From contig NZ_VFOR01000002.1 of the NCBI RefSeq assembly GCF_006716235.1, positions 1-64,000 of the forward strand: a DNA stretch of 64,000 nt. Direction: 5' to 3'. The notes under the pieces are model-generated. The model was not told the origin of the DNA and ran no database searches. It was given only the letters and a program-made list of their open reading frames with translations. The position numbers and the translations under genes were made by a program. Of the stretch, positions 2,356 to 48,692 are shown piece after piece (position 1 is the first letter of the stretch; the number at the start of each line of letters is the position of its first letter). This DNA comes from Propioniferax innocua. Its GTDB lineage: Bacteria; Actinomycetota; Actinomycetes; Propionibacteriales; Propionibacteriaceae.

Positions 2356-3792
2356 TCAGCGGTCCTGCTCGAATTGCTGGAGGGAATCGATGAGGTCATC
2401 GACGCGTCGATCCTCGGTCGTGAACGGGTCGGTCAGCAGCACCTGCCGGGGCGACATCGATGGGGCGTCCGCCCAGCGCCGGGCAGGTTGTTCGAGGATA
2501 CGGAGATTCACCCAGTCGACACTGTGCTCGACCCCCGCAGCACGGGCGGCGGCCAGGAAACGGGACCGCAGATGGGCGCGCGTGGTCGCCGGTGGCTCGG
2601 CGCGGGCCTGTTCCACCTGAGCGTCGGTGACGAGACGTCGCATCGCGCCGCGCCGCACCATCGTGGGGACGATGCCCCGTTCGGGGTGGATGTCGTGGTA
2701 CCGCAGGGCGAGTTCGGCCAGCCGGGCGTCGGTCCACGGCAGATCATGCCGTTCGGCGAACTGCGTCAACAGGCGACGTTTGGCGACCCAGTCGAGACGG
2801 TCGGCGAACGACTCCAGGTCATCGCTTTCGAAGGCGTCGAGGACATCGCCCCACAATTCGAGCGCTGCTTCCAGATCGGGCCGGTCCGCGGCGGAGATCT
2901 CCTCGGCGTCGCCGGTCTCGAAAAAGGCCTGGCATGCGGCATGGAACCGGCGTTGCACGTCGAGGGCGGAAATCGTTCGGCCGGACGCCAGGGTGAGCAC
3001 CGCGCGTCCGGTGAGGTCATGGCTCACCTCACGGATGGCCCGGCCGGGGACGTCCAGGGTGAGGTCGCCGAGCAGGGCGCCGGATTCGATGAGCCGGAGC
3101 ACCAGATCAGCTGTGGTCACCTTGAGCCACGTGACTGTCTCGGACATGTTGGAGTCCCCCACGATCACGTGCAGACGCCGGAACCGCGCCGGATCGGCGT
3201 GGGGTTCGTCGCGGGTGTTGATCATGGGGCGGGTGCGCGTCGTGGCCGACGACACCGGATCCCACATGTGCTCGGCCCGCTGCGAGAGCTGGAATCCACC
3301 ATCGGGCCCCAGATGCCCTGCCCCGGCGTAGAGCTGCCGGGTCACGAGGAACGGGATGAGCAGCTCGGCCTGATCGGCCAGATCGAGATCCCGGGAGACC
3401 AGGTAGTTCTCGTGGCAGCCATACGAGTTCCCGTGGGAATCGACGTTGTTCTTGAAGACGAAGATGTCTGCCTCGGTACCCTCGTCGGCCAGCCGTTCAC
3501 GCGCCTGCTCGGCGAGCTCCTGCACCAGGATCTCGCCCACGCGATCCTGCGCGATGAGGTCGGTGAAGGTGTCACATTCGGCCGTGGCGTACTCGGGATG
3601 TGATCCGACATCGAGGTAGAGCCGACCGCCGTTGTCGAGGAACACATTGCTGGACTTCCCCCATGCCACGACGCTGCGGAACAGCTGCCGGGCGACCTCA
3701 TCGGCGCCGAGGCGTCGTCGCTGACCCTCGCCGCGCTGCACGCACAGGACGCCGAACTCGGTCTCGAGCCCACGGATGCGTCGAATGATCAC
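2356..3792 (-). CDS. pafA: Pup-protein ligase PafA
   Basis: ATP-dependent ligase that joins the C-terminal glutamate of Pup to lysines of target proteins, the actinobacterial counterpart of ubiquitin tagging. The protein is 478 aa, close to the roughly 450-480 aa of the family. The N-terminal GLETEFG (Glu10, metal/ATP site) and DVGSHPEYATAE (Asp61, the catalytic base in characterised PafA) are present, as are FKNN, SYGCHENY, VSSATT, INTRDEPH and VGDSNMSE. It starts at GTG 3792, whose bases overlap the rluB stop (GTGA), so translation is probably coupled. Pup, Dop and the proteasome ATPase are not in the window. Confidence 0.95.
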   Translation of the reverse strand: MIIRRIRGLETEFGVLCVQRGEGQRRRLGADEVARQLFRSVVAWGKSSNVFLDNGGRLYLDVGSHPEYATAECDTFTDLIAQDRVGEILVQELAEQARERLADEGTEADIFVFKNNVDSHGNSYGCHENYLVSRDLDLADQAELLIPFLVTRQLYAGAGHLGPDGGFQLSQRAEHMWDPVSSATTRTRPMINTRDEPHADPARFRRLHVIVGDSNMSETVTWLKVTTADLVLRLIESGALLGDLTLDVPGRAIREVSHDLTGRAVLTLASGRTISALDVQRRFHAACQAFFETGDAEEISAADRPDLEAALELWGDVLDAFESDDLESFADRLDWVAKRRLLTQFAERHDLPWTDARLAELALRYHDIHPERGIVPTMVRRGAMRRLVTDAQVEQARAEPPATTRAHLRSRFLAAARAAGVEHSVDWVNLRILEQPARRWADAPSMSPRQVLLTDPFTTEDRRVDDLIDSLQQFEQDR

Positions 3793-44386: not shown

Positions 44387-45757
44387 ATGACACGTCGATC
44401 CGTCTCCGATACAACCGTTGCCCGCGATCTGCTCCGCCTCGACCGGGACCATCTCTGGCACCCCTACACCGCGGCTCGCGACAGCGCACATCATGTGGTG
44501 CGGGACGGTGATGGCCCGTGGCTGACATTGCTCGACGCCGATGGGCGAGAGCACCGCGCACTCGACGGCATGGGTTCGTGGTGGGCGATGGTGCACGGTC
44601 ATCGCCACCCGGCGCTGGTGGAGGCGGTGACCGAGCAGGCCTCGAGGCTGGCCCATGTGATGTTCGGTGGCCTGACCCATGGGCCTGCCGTGGCATTGGC
44701 TGAGCGCCTGCTCGAGCTGACCCCCGCGGAACTGGAGCACGTGTTCCTGGCCGATTCGGGCTCGGTCTCGGTGGAGGTCGCCCTCAAACTGACCCATCAG
44801 GCACAGGCCGCGCGAGGCCGTCCCGAACGGGACCGGTTCCTCACCGTGCGCGGCGGCTATCACGGCGACACCATCGGCGCGATGAGCGTCTGTGACCCGG
44901 TGAACGGCATGCACGCCGCCTTCGGCGCGATGGTGCACACCAATATCTTCGCGCCAAGGCCTCCGGCGGCCCGGCCGACCGCCGCGGGGTGGCAGACCGA
45001 TGATGCGGCGCTCGAGAGCTGGGCACACGAGTTCCGGCGCCTCGCGGACCAGCACCACGACGAGGTGGCCGGGGTCATCGTCGAGCCCGTGCTCCAAGGC
45101 GCCGGCGGCATGTACGTGTATGCGCCCGAAGCCCTTCGGGTGATGCGCGAGGTGTGTGACGAGCACGGCTTCACGTTGATCGCCGACGAGATCGCCACGG
45201 GATTCGGACGCACCGGACGGTGGCTCGCCTGCGAATGGGCGGAGGTGGTCCCCGACGTCCTCTGTCTCGGCAAAGCGTTGACCGGCGGCATCATGACCGG
45301 CGCCGCGGTCCTGTGTACCCGCGAGATCGCCGATGCCATCAGTTCCGGCACGCCACCGGCCCTCATGCACGGGCCGACGTTCATGGCCAACCCGCTGTTC
45401 TGCGCGGCCGCATGTGCGTCACTCGACCTGCTCGCCGACCCCGAGAACGGATGGTCGACGCAGGTCCCCACGATCGAGCGTGGGCTGCAGGACGGTCTCG
45501 ACGCAGCGCGGGGACTTCCCGGGGTCGCCGATGTCCGGGTCCTGGGTGGCGTCGGCGTGGTGGAGATGACCGAGCCGGTGGACCTGCCTCGACTGACCGC
45601 CGCTGCCGTGGCACGCGGCGTGTGGCTGCGACCGTTCGGTCGGCTGGTCTACGTCATGCCGCCCTACGTCTCGACGCCCGCCGAGATCGAACACCTCTGT
45701 TCCGGGCTCGTGGGCGCGGTGGCCGATGTGGCGCACACGCAGGACGCGAACGCATGA
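44387..45757 (+). CDS. bioA: Adenosylmethionine-8-amino-7-oxononanoate aminotransferase
   Basis: Makes 7,8-diaminopelargonate from KAPA with S-adenosylmethionine as amino donor. 456 aa from ATG 44387. The BioA signatures HLWHPYT (residue 22 on) and GMGSWWAMVHGH (about 61-72) are followed by the PLP residues Asp267 (LIADEIATGFGRTG) and Lys296 (LCLGKALTGG). First gene of bioA-bioF::P450-bioD, ending in an ATGA overlap. Confidence 0.96.
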   Translation: MTRRSVSDTTVARDLLRLDRDHLWHPYTAARDSAHHVVRDGDGPWLTLLDADGREHRALDGMGSWWAMVHGHRHPALVEAVTEQASRLAHVMFGGLTHGPAVALAERLLELTPAELEHVFLADSGSVSVEVALKLTHQAQAARGRPERDRFLTVRGGYHGDTIGAMSVCDPVNGMHAAFGAMVHTNIFAPRPPAARPTAAGWQTDDAALESWAHEFRRLADQHHDEVAGVIVEPVLQGAGGMYVYAPEALRVMREVCDEHGFTLIADEIATGFGRTGRWLACEWAEVVPDVLCLGKALTGGIMTGAAVLCTREIADAISSGTPPALMHGPTFMANPLFCAAACASLDLLADPENGWSTQVPTIERGLQDGLDAARGLPGVADVRVLGGVGVVEMTEPVDLPRLTAAAVARGVWLRPFGRLVYVMPPYVSTPAEIEHLCSGLVGAVADVAHTQDANA

Positions 45758-48048
45758 CGGCGACGTGGACCGAGTGGAGAACGAGCCGGGCGATGCGCCG
45801 GGAGCGACAAGGCGTCGAACGTGATGCCGTCGCGCGACCGGTCGAGGCCTTCGACCTCGCCTCCAATGACTACCTGGGCTTGCGCGACCACCCACGAGTG
45901 CGGGCGGCCGCGGCGTCACATCTGGACGACGGCCCGGTCGGTGCCGGAGCCTCACGCGTGGTCAGCGGAACCCACCCGGTGCATGACCGGCTGGAACGCG
46001 CGTTGACCGACCTGACCGGCGCAGGCGCCGCCTTGGTGTGTTCGAGCGGCTACCTGGCCAACATGACGCTCATCGGCGCGCTCGGCGGCCCGAACTCACG
46101 TGTGTTGTTGGACGAACACGTGCACGCGAGCATCCACGACGGGGCCCGGGCAGCACACACGCTCATGGAGACCTTCGCCCACAACGATCTCGACGCCCTC
46201 GAGATGCTTCTCTCCACGAGCGACCGCCGCACCACGGTGGTGGTCGAATCGATCTACTCCGCTCTGGGTGACGCCGCACCCCTCGCACGGATCGCCGAAC
46301 TGTGTCGCGCCCACGATGCGGCGTTGATGATCGACGAGGCCCACAGTCTCGCGGTCGTCCCCGGCCACAGCATGGTGCGAGCCACAGACCTGTGGGGTCT
46401 CGGTGGTCCCCCGGTGTTCGTCACCGCCACGCTCTCCAAGGCGCTGGGTGCCCAAGGTGGCGTCATCCTCACCGGGGGCGACGACGCCGCAAAATGGCGT
46501 CGGCACATCATCAACACCGGCCGGGGCTTCATCTTCGACACCGGGCTGGCCCCGGTGGTGGCCGCCGCTGCCGTCACTGCGGTCGAGATGGTCTGCGATG
46601 GTGCCCTCGCCGCCCGGTGCCGCGAGAACCAGGCCATGATCTCCGCCGCGCTGAGGCGGCGTCCGGAGTTGTTCGATCATGTGGAATCCGGCCCCGGCGC
46701 ACTCGTCTCGGTGCGCATGCCCAGCCCCGACGCGGCCGTGACCGCCGCCACCGAACTGCGTGGGCACGGGGTGGCTGTGGGCTGCTTCCGGCCGCCGAGC
46801 GTGCCCGACCGCTGGTCGCTGCTGCGGATCACCGCATCGGCGCGGCTCACCCGGGCCGAGACGGCGGTCGCCGCCGAGATGATCGCCGAGGTCGCCGCTC
46901 GATACTGGGGTGCCCCGGTCCGGGCTCCGTTCGACGACGTTGATGGGCGCCCGGTGGATCGGCGCGCCGATCAGGTGCTCGTGAGCGACAGCGACGAGGT
47001 GCGCCGCGTGTTCGGTGACGCCGAGACGTTCGCCGCCGACAATGCCCTGACCGCTCTTCAGCCCCTGAGCCGCCCCACGGCTCGTGCGCTGGCGGCTGCG
47101 AAATTCCGTCTGCCCAAGGTGCTGGCCTCGGCCGGAGGTCCCGAACATCTGGCGGTCCGGAAGATTGTCGCGGCCTTCTTCTCTCCTGCGCGTGTGCGGG
47201 CCCAGACCGACGCGATCATCACCGCCACCGATGCCTGCATCGAGGCTCTGGAGGCCTCCCCCGCCCCGTGCATCGGCTCTGCTCCGGTGATCGATCTCGG
47301 GGCGACGGTGGCCGGTACGGTCCCCGCCGGAGTCTTCTCACGGCTCACCGAGATGCCACTGCCCGATTTGGAGGACCTGAACCGTTGGAGCGCAGATTCC
47401 CTCGAGCTGTTCTGGGGGTGGCCGGGCGAAGCACGTCAGTCCCATCTGGCCGAGTCGGCCATCGAACTTCACGGCTGGTTGCGCGCGATGGTCGACGAGG
47501 TGTCCGCTCATGGAGCCGACGGCACCGGGCTGGTCGCCGAACTGATCGGGGCGGGGCTCCGCGTCGATCAGGTCGTGTCGTTGACCTACTTCCTGATCAT
47601 CGCCGGTCAGGAGACGACGCGCATGCTGATCGCCACCGCCTTGCAACGGGCCCTGCGGGACCGCGATCTGTGGCGCCGGTGCGGTGAATCCGGGGACGCG
47701 GCCGATGCGCTGATCGGTGAGGTTCTCACCGACGCGTCATCGGTGCCCACGTGGCGTCGCATCACTTCACGGGACGCCCTTGTGAACGGCCAGCACGTTC
47801 CCGCGGGAACGCCTCTGCTGCTGCAGGTCTCCGGTGGTGTCGACGCCGCGGAGCGCCGTGACCATCTCGCCTTCGGCCACGGTGTGCATCGGTGCCTGGG
47901 GGCGGGACTGGCGCGTCTGGAGGCCGGTCTCGTGGTGCACCGCACGGCCCGGGCCCTCCCCGGCGCCACGCTGGCCGGCCCCGAACCCGCGTGGGTGAAT
48001 CTGTTGTCGTTCCAGGCGCCCCGCACCGTGTTGGTGAAGACGCGATGA
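45754..48048 (+). CDS. bioF: Fusion of 8-amino-7-oxononanoate synthase (BioF) with a BioI-like cytochrome P450
   Basis: 764 aa in one uninterrupted frame from ATG 45754, which overlaps bioA (ATGA). Residues 1-385 are a complete BioF: SNDYLGL, GTHPVHDRLE, DEAHSLAVVPG (Asp194, His197) and the PLP lysine Lys229 in TLSKALGAQGG. A short linker leads to a P450 from about residue 405: C-helix GPEHLAVRK (His465, Arg469), oxygen-binding I helix AGQETT (617-622) and haem loop FGHGVHRCLG (Cys714). BioI-type P450s cut acyl-ACP to pimeloyl-ACP, the substrate of BioF, so the fusion couples supply and use. Unusual: the P450 lacks about 50 N-terminal residues of a free enzyme, ExxR reads EVLT (656-659), and the meander is about 11 residues short. 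No redox partner is nearby. Confidence 0.92.
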   Translation: MTATWTEWRTSRAMRRERQGVERDAVARPVEAFDLASNDYLGLRDHPRVRAAAASHLDDGPVGAGASRVVSGTHPVHDRLERALTDLTGAGAALVCSSGYLANMTLIGALGGPNSRVLLDEHVHASIHDGARAAHTLMETFAHNDLDALEMLLSTSDRRTTVVVESIYSALGDAAPLARIAELCRAHDAALMIDEAHSLAVVPGHSMVRATDLWGLGGPPVFVTATLSKALGAQGGVILTGGDDAAKWRRHIINTGRGFIFDTGLAPVVAAAAVTAVEMVCDGALAARCRENQAMISAALRRRPELFDHVESGPGALVSVRMPSPDAAVTAATELRGHGVAVGCFRPPSVPDRWSLLRITASARLTRAETAVAAEMIAEVAARYWGAPVRAPFDDVDGRPVDRRADQVLVSDSDEVRRVFGDAETFAADNALTALQPLSRPTARALAAAKFRLPKVLASAGGPEHLAVRKIVAAFFSPARVRAQTDAIITATDACIEALEASPAPCIGSAPVIDLGATVAGTVPAGVFSRLTEMPLPDLEDLNRWSADSLELFWGWPGEARQSHLAESAIELHGWLRAMVDEVSAHGADGTGLVAELIGAGLRVDQVVSLTYFLIIAGQETTRMLIATALQRALRDRDLWRRCGESGDAADALIGEVLTDASSVPTWRRITSRDALVNGQHVPAGTPLLLQVSGGVDAAERRDHLAFGHGVHRCLGAGLARLEAGLVVHRTARALPGATLAGPEPAWVNLLSFQAPRTVLVKTR

Positions 48049-48692
48049 GCCTGCCCACACAGATCCGCGTCATCACCGGAACCGACACCGATGTCGGCAA
48101 GACCCACGCCACCGCGCACATCGCCGCCCGATATCTGGCCGCCGGGCACACGGTGCACGTCGACAAGCCGGTGCAGACCGGTGTCGCCGATGGTGCCGAG
48201 ACCGATGTGCAGACCGTGCGTCGGCTGCTGGGGGCGCCGGCCGCGCTGACGTGCACCGAGGGGGTACGGCTGGAACCGGCCATGGCTCCGGTGGACGCGG
48301 CCCGCCTCACCGATTCTCGGCTCCCGGACCTGTCCTGGCAGCTCGCCCGGCTGGAACGTGTGGTGTCCGGTGATGTACTGCTCATCGAAGGCGCCGGCGG
48401 AGTCAGCGTCGAGATGTGCCCGGGAACCGATATGGCCGATCTGGCCCGGGAACTGTCGGTTCCTCTGGATGTGGTGGCGCGCCCCGGTCTGGGCACCCAG
48501 AACCACACCCTGCTCACGCTGGAGTACGCGGTGCGGCGTCAGGTGCGGCTCGGTGCGCTGATCGTGTGCCGCGTCCCCGCTGAACCCGATCCGGTGGTTC
48601 AGGCGAACCTCACCCACCTGAGGGCATTGGCCGATCGGTTCGACATGACCTGGGGACCACACATCGCCGAACGCACACCGAGCCCCTCCTGA
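48045..48692 (+). CDS. bioD: Dethiobiotin synthetase
   Basis: Forms the ureido ring of dethiobiotin from diaminopelargonate, CO2 and ATP. 215 aa from ATG 48045, overlapping bioF::P450 as ATGA. The P-loop is GTDTDVGKTHAT (Lys19), followed by VDKPVQTG and IEGAGGVSVEM. The last step enzyme BioB is not in this operon. Confidence 0.94.
   Translation: MSLPTQIRVITGTDTDVGKTHATAHIAARYLAAGHTVHVDKPVQTGVADGAETDVQTVRRLLGAPAALTCTEGVRLEPAMAPVDAARLTDSRLPDLSWQLARLERVVSGDVLLIEGAGGVSVEMCPGTDMADLARELSVPLDVVARPGLGTQNHTLLTLEYAVRRQVRLGALIVCRVPAEPDPVVQANLTHLRALADRFDMTWGPHIAERTPSPS

Follow-up and report, generated by a model that had tools for sequence, protein, structure and literature searches.

The locus analysed here lies in a 64,000-nucleotide stretch of Propioniferax innocua DNA (assembly GCF_006716235.1, contig NZ_VFOR01000002.1, positions 1 to 64,000; hereafter the window) and comprises three consecutive biotin genes in the order bioA, bioF::P450 fusion and bioD, with neither a ketosynthase nor an ACP gene among them (Table 1). 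The bioA stop and the fusion start overlap in the ATGA at 45754-45757, and the fusion stop and the bioD start in the ATGA at 48045-48048. As a first-pass annotation had claimed, the fusion is a continuous frame of 764 open codons encoding a BioF-type domain followed by one with the P450 fold, within a biotin operon, and the motif sites reported there, namely K229 (SKALG from residue 228), H197 (DEAH from 194), AGQETT (from 617) and FGHGVHRCLG (from 707, with Cys714), proved correct.

Table 1. Positions in the window of the biotin genes and of the domains and motifs of the fusion protein.
Feature	Position	Strand	Basis
bioA (456 aa), gene upstream of fusion	44387..45757	+	TIGR00508 bioA, 517 bits vs cut-off 405
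bioF::P450 fusion gene, 764 aa	45754..48048	+	ORF; domain models; second example in G001
BioF-type domain, residues 12-377	45787..46884	+	TIGR00858, E 8e-81; solved relative 3wy7
Lys229 of SKALG motif	46438..46440	+	sequence position
Linker, ~residues 383-406 (limits by eye)	46900..46971	+	low model confidence at 392-404; no stop in fusion frame
Compact P450 domain, ~residues 407-764	46972..48045	+	profile, structure model, structural matches
I-helix motif AGQETT (617-622)	47602..47619	+	invariant in 40/40 rows of core-P450 alignment
EVLT (656-659) at usual ExxR place	47719..47730	+	full ExxR in 3/40 rows only
WRR (667-669), after K helix	47752..47760	+	W289 R290 R291 invariant in core-P450 alignment
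Haem-cysteine loop FGHGVHRCLG (707-716), Cys714	47872..47901	+	Cys in 40/40 rows
bioD	48045..48692	+	TIGR00347, 99.9 bits vs cut-off 83.3

The closest solved relative of the N-terminal half is the 8-amino-7-oxononanoate synthase 3wy7 (E 8.8e-66), to which K229, D194 and H197 align, and Pfam PF00155 also matches this half (E 8.8e-40). We take Lys229 to be the Schiff-base lysine of the alpha-oxoamine synthase family, and presume that all three residues have the roles familiar from that family. TIGR00858 is the best match in the NCBIfam library, but its score of 271.6 bits (322.5 bits for a second fusion, described below) is under the cut-off of 426.45, so the strict BioF equivalog label is unearned. 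In an operon of this type, an unfused relative carries the annotation 8-amino-7-oxononanoate synthase, and, judged by sequence and context, the N-terminal half probably works like BioF.

For the C-terminal half, the Pfam p450 model scores above its cut-off but covers only residues 701-730, and the NCBIfam CYP119 model matches residues 457-733 (E 8.5e-16) far below its own cut-off. The predicted structure of this half has a P450 fold (pLDDT 84.9, pTM 0.88), with structural matches reaching a Z score of 40.3. Modelled over its full length (pLDDT 87, pTM 0.60), the protein has low confidence at residues 392-404, and the relative placing of its two domains was left unused.

Scanning contigs with the P450 alignment gave 561 relatives, the best 80 of which supplied the core and distant loci considered here. 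All 40 core P450 loci adjoin biotin genes and none of the 40 more distant ones does, the two groups having been split by identity (38-49% versus 24-36%) after their contexts had already been seen. Among the matches listed, core loci occur in Arthrobacter, Glutamicibacter, Microlunatus, Kribbella and others, and the 40 core stretches carry bioB (38), bioA (38), bioF (38) and bioD (39). bioF and the P450 are separate genes in all 38 core loci that carry both on the stretch, with bioD sitting between them in 25 (again among the matches listed); in the nearest relatives the two are adjacent and mostly overlap. These unfused P450s belong to the same family as that of the window and lie in the same biotin operon, differing in being separate genes. 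The P450 family is thus tied to biotin synthesis by an observed pairing. The Arthrobacter sp. FW306-05-C member is annotated simply as 'cytochrome P450' (WP_336885647.1), and we found no family name for the biotin-operon P450.

The Glu-Arg-Arg core, formed by ExxR and the meander, has long been held near-essential in P450s. In an alignment of 38 of the 40 core P450s (without L084 and L091) with the window and second fusion proteins, the haem cysteine, AGQETT and HxxxR are each present in 40 of 40 rows, and ExxR is complete in three. The distance from WRR to the cysteine loop is 51 residues in all nine scored outgroup P450s (of 13 fetched), 38 in the window, 29-33 in 12 of 12 Kribbella-group rows (14 fetched, without L044 and L046) and 31-58 across the core-P450 alignment, whose longer loops resemble, by eye, unrelated filler. 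For L148 and L149, where the script hit an earlier WRR, the motif was read off the printed sequence instead. Against CreJ, the family profile has a 12-residue gap at the meander. By these alignments the biotin-operon P450 family has lost, or is losing, ExxR and the usual meander while keeping its haem residues, a feature that the first-pass annotation did not mention: ExxR is lost in most unfused members and the meander is cut or replaced, as in the window. Conservation of Cys, AGQETT and HxxxR is consistent with a P450 that binds haem and activates O2. With ExxR and the usual meander gone, catalysis may have changed or been lost.

Assignment to the P450 superfamily rests on the fold and the cysteine, ExxR being absent and CYP157 providing a known exception; CYP157 P450s also lack ExxR and, in the accessible part of the source, are linked to conservons and not to biotin genes (PMC3599690). 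The erosion of ExxR and the meander, together with a weak, sub-cut-off match to TIGR04515 (P450-derived glycosyltransferase activator), could mean that the P450 half is a non-oxidising scaffold, haem-bound or empty, which activates or stabilises BioF much as such activators do for their partners. We regard this as improbable, given that the three haem-associated motifs are kept throughout while ExxR erodes, that CYP157 shows ExxR-less P450s to be a described class, and that bioD intervenes between bioF and the P450 in so many of the loci listed, which makes an obligate BioF partnership odd.

A second fusion, in a genome of the same family but another genus (G001), carries both domains at full length with 50% identity to the window's protein, and a check for a stop or frameshift between its domains found one open frame. 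The fusion is also the sole TIGR00858 match at E<=1e-10 in this genome and in that of the window (G000). Across 198 genomes of the family Propionibacteriaceae, four have a hit to the P450 profile at E<=1e-45, and these comprise the two fusions, an unfused core gene (G546) and a more distant P450 (G556). Apparent fusions in two Kribbella genomes, where the BioF and P450 matches shared one listed open-frame length (1059 in G063, 1184 in G087), were rejected since in the DNA bioF ends at its own stop and several hundred bases separate it from the P450 start. The titles and abstract openings searched in open-licence PubMed Central name no BioF-P450 fusion.

The existence of G001 bears directly on whether two truly separate genes might only look fused in the window, through a recent frameshift or an error of assembly or sequencing. 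Among the matches listed, 13 unfused relatives share this gene order, and in 12 of them bioF and the P450 occupy different frames, so that a single indel can join such a pair. The window's linker has a four-G run at 46907, a four-C run at 46913 and a neighbouring frame that runs without a stop from 46883 until the TGA at 46982. That TGA belongs to a GTGA at 46981, just past the linker, which reads GTG in the fusion frame. This GTGA may be a remnant of the stop/start overlap seen in the unfused relatives, or may resemble that overlap by chance; no GTGA-like motif was found at the fitting place in the G001 junction. However, G001 is fused through a different linker, and its shifted frame meets a stop only at 3362, beyond the conserved P450 start, or none in the stretch examined. 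A P450 starting at 46981 in the window would miss a stretch present in the unfused relatives, third-position G+C stays high through the junction, and the base composition of the linker by codon position, although the stretch is short, is most coding-like in the fusion frame. With a second full-length fusion at hand, we consider an artefact highly unlikely. A genuine fused frame might in addition contain an in-frame internal start that yields free P450, the candidates being the GTG codons of residues 401, 408 and 410, approximately where unfused P450s begin; such codons are common in G+C-rich DNA, and this addition, compatible with the explanation we favour below, seems distinctly doubtful.

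In a joint tree of 37 rows with both halves (without L084 and L089), the window groups with unfused Glutamicibacter-type genes and G001 falls one step outside; when the two were constrained to a single clade, the AU test returned p 0.0487, with long branches, so that one fusion event or two may lie behind them. The BioF and P450 halves (the P450 tree being built without L082 and L091) fall in matching clades with relatives of the bioF-P450-bioD order. The fusion would have arisen by the joining of two neighbouring genes, a pair that overlaps in most relatives with this order.

The first-pass annotation had called the P450 BioI-like, a kinship that does not hold up. Ranked by sequence, the nearest solved P450s are CreJ (E 2.2e-64) and CYP116B46 (1.2e-55), with P450BioI (CYP107H1) of Bacillus subtilis a long way behind (5.2e-34), and this ranking, with 18-20% identity in the structural alignment, led us to reject BioI orthology. 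A place in CYP107H would call for BioI as the nearest solved P450 or for identity above 40%, the usual rule for a CYP family (PMC3599690, in the part accessible), and neither was found. P450BioI is alike in fold, with its acyl-ACP complex ranking fairly high in the structural comparisons (Foldseek rank 8; Z 34.5, rank 11), in its biotin operon and in its presumed supply of a pimeloyl thioester, but it is a separate gene. The analogy drawn with Bacillus is also weaker than claimed, as B. subtilis BioF reportedly does not use pimeloyl-ACP and absence of BioI is described as having little effect on biotin (PMC11089781, accessible part).

Similarly, the idea that the P450 is the only pimelate source loses its footing. 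None of 12 genomes has BioC or BioW over the cut-off (weaker methyltransferase matches occur in all 12), but BioC is likewise below the cut-off in 8 of 8 other actinobacteria, including all three that have bioF and lack a core P450 (G058, G061, G084). BioC absence therefore says little about a sole source, and we dropped this argument; given those bioF-bearing relatives, a further pimelate route may have gone unnoticed. bioB is over its cut-off in 11 of the 12 genomes (the exception being G152). There is also a gene for a BioY importer, which would allow uptake of biotin from outside. The tethered ACP once envisaged gives way to a carrier encoded elsewhere: no ACP domain matched in the fusion, and ACP-like matches occur in 12 of 12 genomes, above the cut-off in three, including G000 and G001. 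No Fer4_15 ferredoxin, the only ferredoxin kind searched for, was found in G000.

From the genomic context we infer that the P450 is the pimelate supplier in the fusion. The polypeptide would cover two successive early steps of biotin synthesis, in which the C-terminal P450 would oxidatively cleave a fatty acyl chain on the cell's acyl carrier protein to a C7 (pimeloyl) thioester, and the N-terminal PLP enzyme would condense this with L-alanine to 8-amino-7-oxononanoate (KAPA), to be taken on by BioA and BioD from the same operon. The P450 would be a dedicated actinobacterial biotin enzyme recruited independently of Bacillus BioI. We think it probable that such an independently recruited P450 makes a pimeloyl thioester used by BioF on the same chain. 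What the sequences show is the fusion, the operon, the tie of the whole P450 family to biotin genes, a predicted P450 fold and conserved haem residues; catalysis, substrate and any channelling are predictions. The more demanding version, a self-contained fatty-acyl-ACP to KAPA synthase whose P450 independently evolved the BioI role, passes its product to the BioF of its own chain and is catalytic despite the loss of the Glu-Arg-Arg core, we regard as possible and hold tentatively.

The P450 might instead be catalytic for biotin with another substrate, for instance by oxidising a free fatty acid or a dicarboxylic acid to pimelate, or through tailoring towards a biotin-vitamer analogue such as the alkylated KAPA of the mkp cluster. 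To our knowledge, its nearest solved relatives, CreJ and CYP116B, are not acyl-ACP enzymes, which favours such a role. Furthermore, in the Streptomyces mkp cluster the P450 MkpG and the BioF-like MkpD are both reported essential for alpha-methyl-KAPA (PMC13336041, accessible part), so that a pair of this kind can yield an analogue instead of biotin. These are two proteins, in a cluster with a ketosynthase and an ACP, likened here by function with their sequences uncompared; the Streptomyces relatives L149-L151, considered as mkp clusters, have no BioF match at E<=1e-8 within 19.9-kb stretches, and mkp stays a functional analogy, which also serves the favoured reading as a precedent for a P450 working with a BioF-like enzyme. 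We judge the alternative rather unlikely, as the P450 family resides in primary biotin operons (by the gene counts listed above), G000 has no BioF match other than the fusion, and the fusion's own operon is free of ketosynthase and ACP genes. For a P450 that feeds the BioF on its own chain, a precedent with another pimelate enzyme exists in the BioWF fusions, in which both halves are reported active (PMC9544090, accessible part). In CaBioWF of Corynebacterium amycolatum, BioF is naturally fused to an enzyme that makes a pimelate thioester, as proposed for the window's protein, but the partner is the ATP-dependent BioW, placed N-terminally and using free pimelate and CoA.

One gene joining BioF to a stripped-down P450 suggests a short-cut from fatty acids to biotin. 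How the pimelate half of biotin is made in many actinobacteria is, to our understanding, not settled, and even for Bacillus the accessible part of PMC11089781 reports that BioF is not fed by the P450 route. With BioF tied to a P450 by evolution, the physiological reality of a P450-to-BioF route becomes directly testable. The P450 family also forms a graded natural series: ExxR and meander are intact at one end, the Kribbella members combine a lost meander with a half-eroded ExxR, and in Arthrobacter, Glutamicibacter and the window ExxR is almost wholly gone. Such a series can be used to test what the Glu-Arg-Arg core does for folding and haem retention.

A search of plasmid records gave 222 matches, of which two span 80% or more of the fusion, both of them in two pieces; the second is unannotated, and the best is annotated with separate bioF and P450 genes with bioD between them.

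The fusion gene runs for 764 codons without a stop, and every residue singled out in the first-pass annotation was confirmed at its position. Its BioF half (residues 12-377) matches TIGR00858 with E = 8e-81, at 272 bits against a model cut-off of 426, while the P450 half matches the CYP119 model below cut-off (residues 457-733, E = 8.5e-16) and the Pfam p450 model over residues 701-730 only. The gene shares an ATGA overlap with bioA at its 5' end and with bioD at its 3' end; 5' of bioA lies a tRNA-synthetase-like gene on the opposite strand, and the ORF taken as the next gene 3' of bioD is on the minus strand. The bioB of this genome is on a separate contig, truncated by the contig end, such that its neighbours are only partly known.

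Positions of the genes and sites discussed
Feature	Sequence	Positions	Remark
bioF-P450 fusion	window	45754-48048	plus strand
GTGA in fusion linker	window	46981	
bioB, P. innocua	L172	6852-7690	end of contig C1
Two further P450 genes, P. innocua	L175 (contig C3)	within 80000-94000	near each other
Fusion, G001	L035	2122-4374	
bioB with putative bioD and bioA, G001	L173	2474-5607	different contig from fusion
bioF/P450 near-fusion	L070	7956-7965	Arthrobacter cryoconiti
bioB-bioA-bioF-bioD-P450 operon	L178	1385-7061	Arthrobacter sp. FW306-05-C plasmid
Small Cys-rich ORF	L152	15919-16164	immediately 3' of bioB

A search with the fusion protein found near-full-length single-frame matches in two of 96 genomes, namely P. 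innocua itself and G001, a member of another genus of the same family; the two proteins share 50% identity and differ in their linkers. Across 198 genomes of the family, the P450 profile (E<=1e-45) matched four: the two fusions, an unfused P450 in G546 (taken as Microlunatus speluncae; the L065 locus) and a more distant one in G556 (28% identity). In both fusion-bearing genomes the fusion is the sole TIGR00858 match at E<=1e-10. A single indel at the linker could mimic a fusion, and the window linker does carry short homopolymer runs and a GTGA, whereas G001 has no such GTGA at any fitting place; the fusion is rare, and it is probably genuine. In G001, the bioB contig also carries neighbours read, from ORF starts, as bioD and bioA.

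Genome contigs were searched with a profile of a 14-row P450 alignment and the best 80 of 561 relatives were used. Among these 80, a core group of 40 loci (38-49% identity) was separated from the rest by identity, with the dividing line set after the contexts were known. At least one biotin gene lay on the fetched stretch in all 40 core loci (bioA in 38, bioB in 38, bioD in 39 and bioF in 38), and biotin genes at E<=1e-8 were found beside none of the other 40 (24-36% identity), some of which lie on short contigs. Among the 38 core loci from these best 80 that hold both genes, the order was bioF-P450-bioD in 13 and bioF-bioD-P450 in 25, and none was fused. In 10 of the 13 loci with the former order, a start codon and the bioF stop share a four-base overlap (ATGA, GTGA or TTGA); L071 has a one-base overlap, and L064 and L070 have none, the two genes of L070 being read in one frame but separated by a stop codon. 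Within L055-L096, bioB type tracks gene order, with 35-38% identity to Kribbella bioB where the P450 directly follows bioF and 76-97% where bioD intervenes. In three Kribbella-group genomes the P450 gene lies ~26-29 kb from bioF (G085, L047/L048; G083, L049/L050; G091, L053/L054).

Separate BioF and P450 trees each placed both fusions in a 15-row clade in which every member with visible order is bioF-P450-bioD, and a joint tree recovered the same grouping (14 rows, support 100/99), which indicates that fusion joined a pair already adjacent and travelling together. An AU test of the two fusions forming a single clade gave p = 0.0487, with long branches; the genes may have been joined once or twice.

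The predicted structure of the P450 half has a good P450 fold (pLDDT 84.9, pTM 0.88). Its best solved relatives by profile search were CreJ (2.2e-64), a type IV self-sufficient P450 (6kbh; 1.3e-57) and CYP116B46 (1.2e-55), with P450BioI at 5.2e-34; structural comparison gave Z scores of 40.3 for CreJ, 39.6 for CYP116B5 and 34.5 for BioI with acyl-ACP, and BioI ranked eighth in Foldseek. Thus the P450 half is not a BioI orthologue, and the earlier label "BioI-like" is not supported as a statement of kinship.

In an alignment of 38 of the 40 core P450s with both fusions, the haem Cys, AGQETT and HxxxR are each present in 40/40 rows, and the K-helix Glu and Arg occur together in 3/40. In each of the nine outgroup P450s that were scored, ExxR is present and 51 residues separate WRR from the Cys loop. 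This distance is 29-33 residues in all 12 Kribbella-group rows, five of which retain a complete ExxR; it varies in Arthrobacter-type rows (31-58 across the alignment, 38 in the window), nearly all of which have lost ExxR, and by eye the long-loop rows have lost meander character. We infer that the meander was lost first and ExxR eroded later, as would be expected if the two make up a single structural unit. CYP157 is a precedent for losing ExxR by itself (PMC3599690). Biotin genes also neighbour four outgroup P450s from other families of the class (L148, L152, L153, L154) in which ExxR and the meander length are intact, so biotin service probably predates ExxR loss. The small ORF beside bioB in L152 may, as a guess, encode the auxiliary protein for biotin synthases in actinobacteria.

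The P450 family is consistently tied to biotin operons and paired with BioF, and its haem residues do not vary; all of this fits an enzyme that makes BioF's pimeloyl thioester. Most likely, the P450 half would yield this thioester and BioF would use it, with a putative substrate, product and electron donor and presumed channelling. The closest functional precedent is Streptomyces mkp, where a P450 and a BioF-like enzyme are both required for alpha-methyl-KAPA (PMC13336041); the closest fusion precedent is BioWF, which joins BioF to a pimelate enzyme (PMC9544090). ACP-like matches occurred in all 12 genomes tested, above cut-off in three, and a search for Fer4_15-type ferredoxins found none in P. 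innocua. The suggestion that the P450 might be the only pimelate source is not supported: BioC and BioW were above cut-off in 0/12 genomes, yet BioC was so in 0/8 control actinobacteria too.

Both enzyme families, and fusions of BioF with a pimelate enzyme, are already known. Searches of the open-licence literature turned up no BioF-P450 fusion in the listed titles and abstract openings; within the literature searched, the pairing, the position of this P450 family inside biotin operons and the joint loss of ExxR and meander appear undescribed. An unfused relative is labelled just "cytochrome P450" in two annotated plasmid records. On the Arthrobacter sp. FW306-05-C plasmid, typed as conjugative, the operon is complete and adjoins an IS110 transposase.
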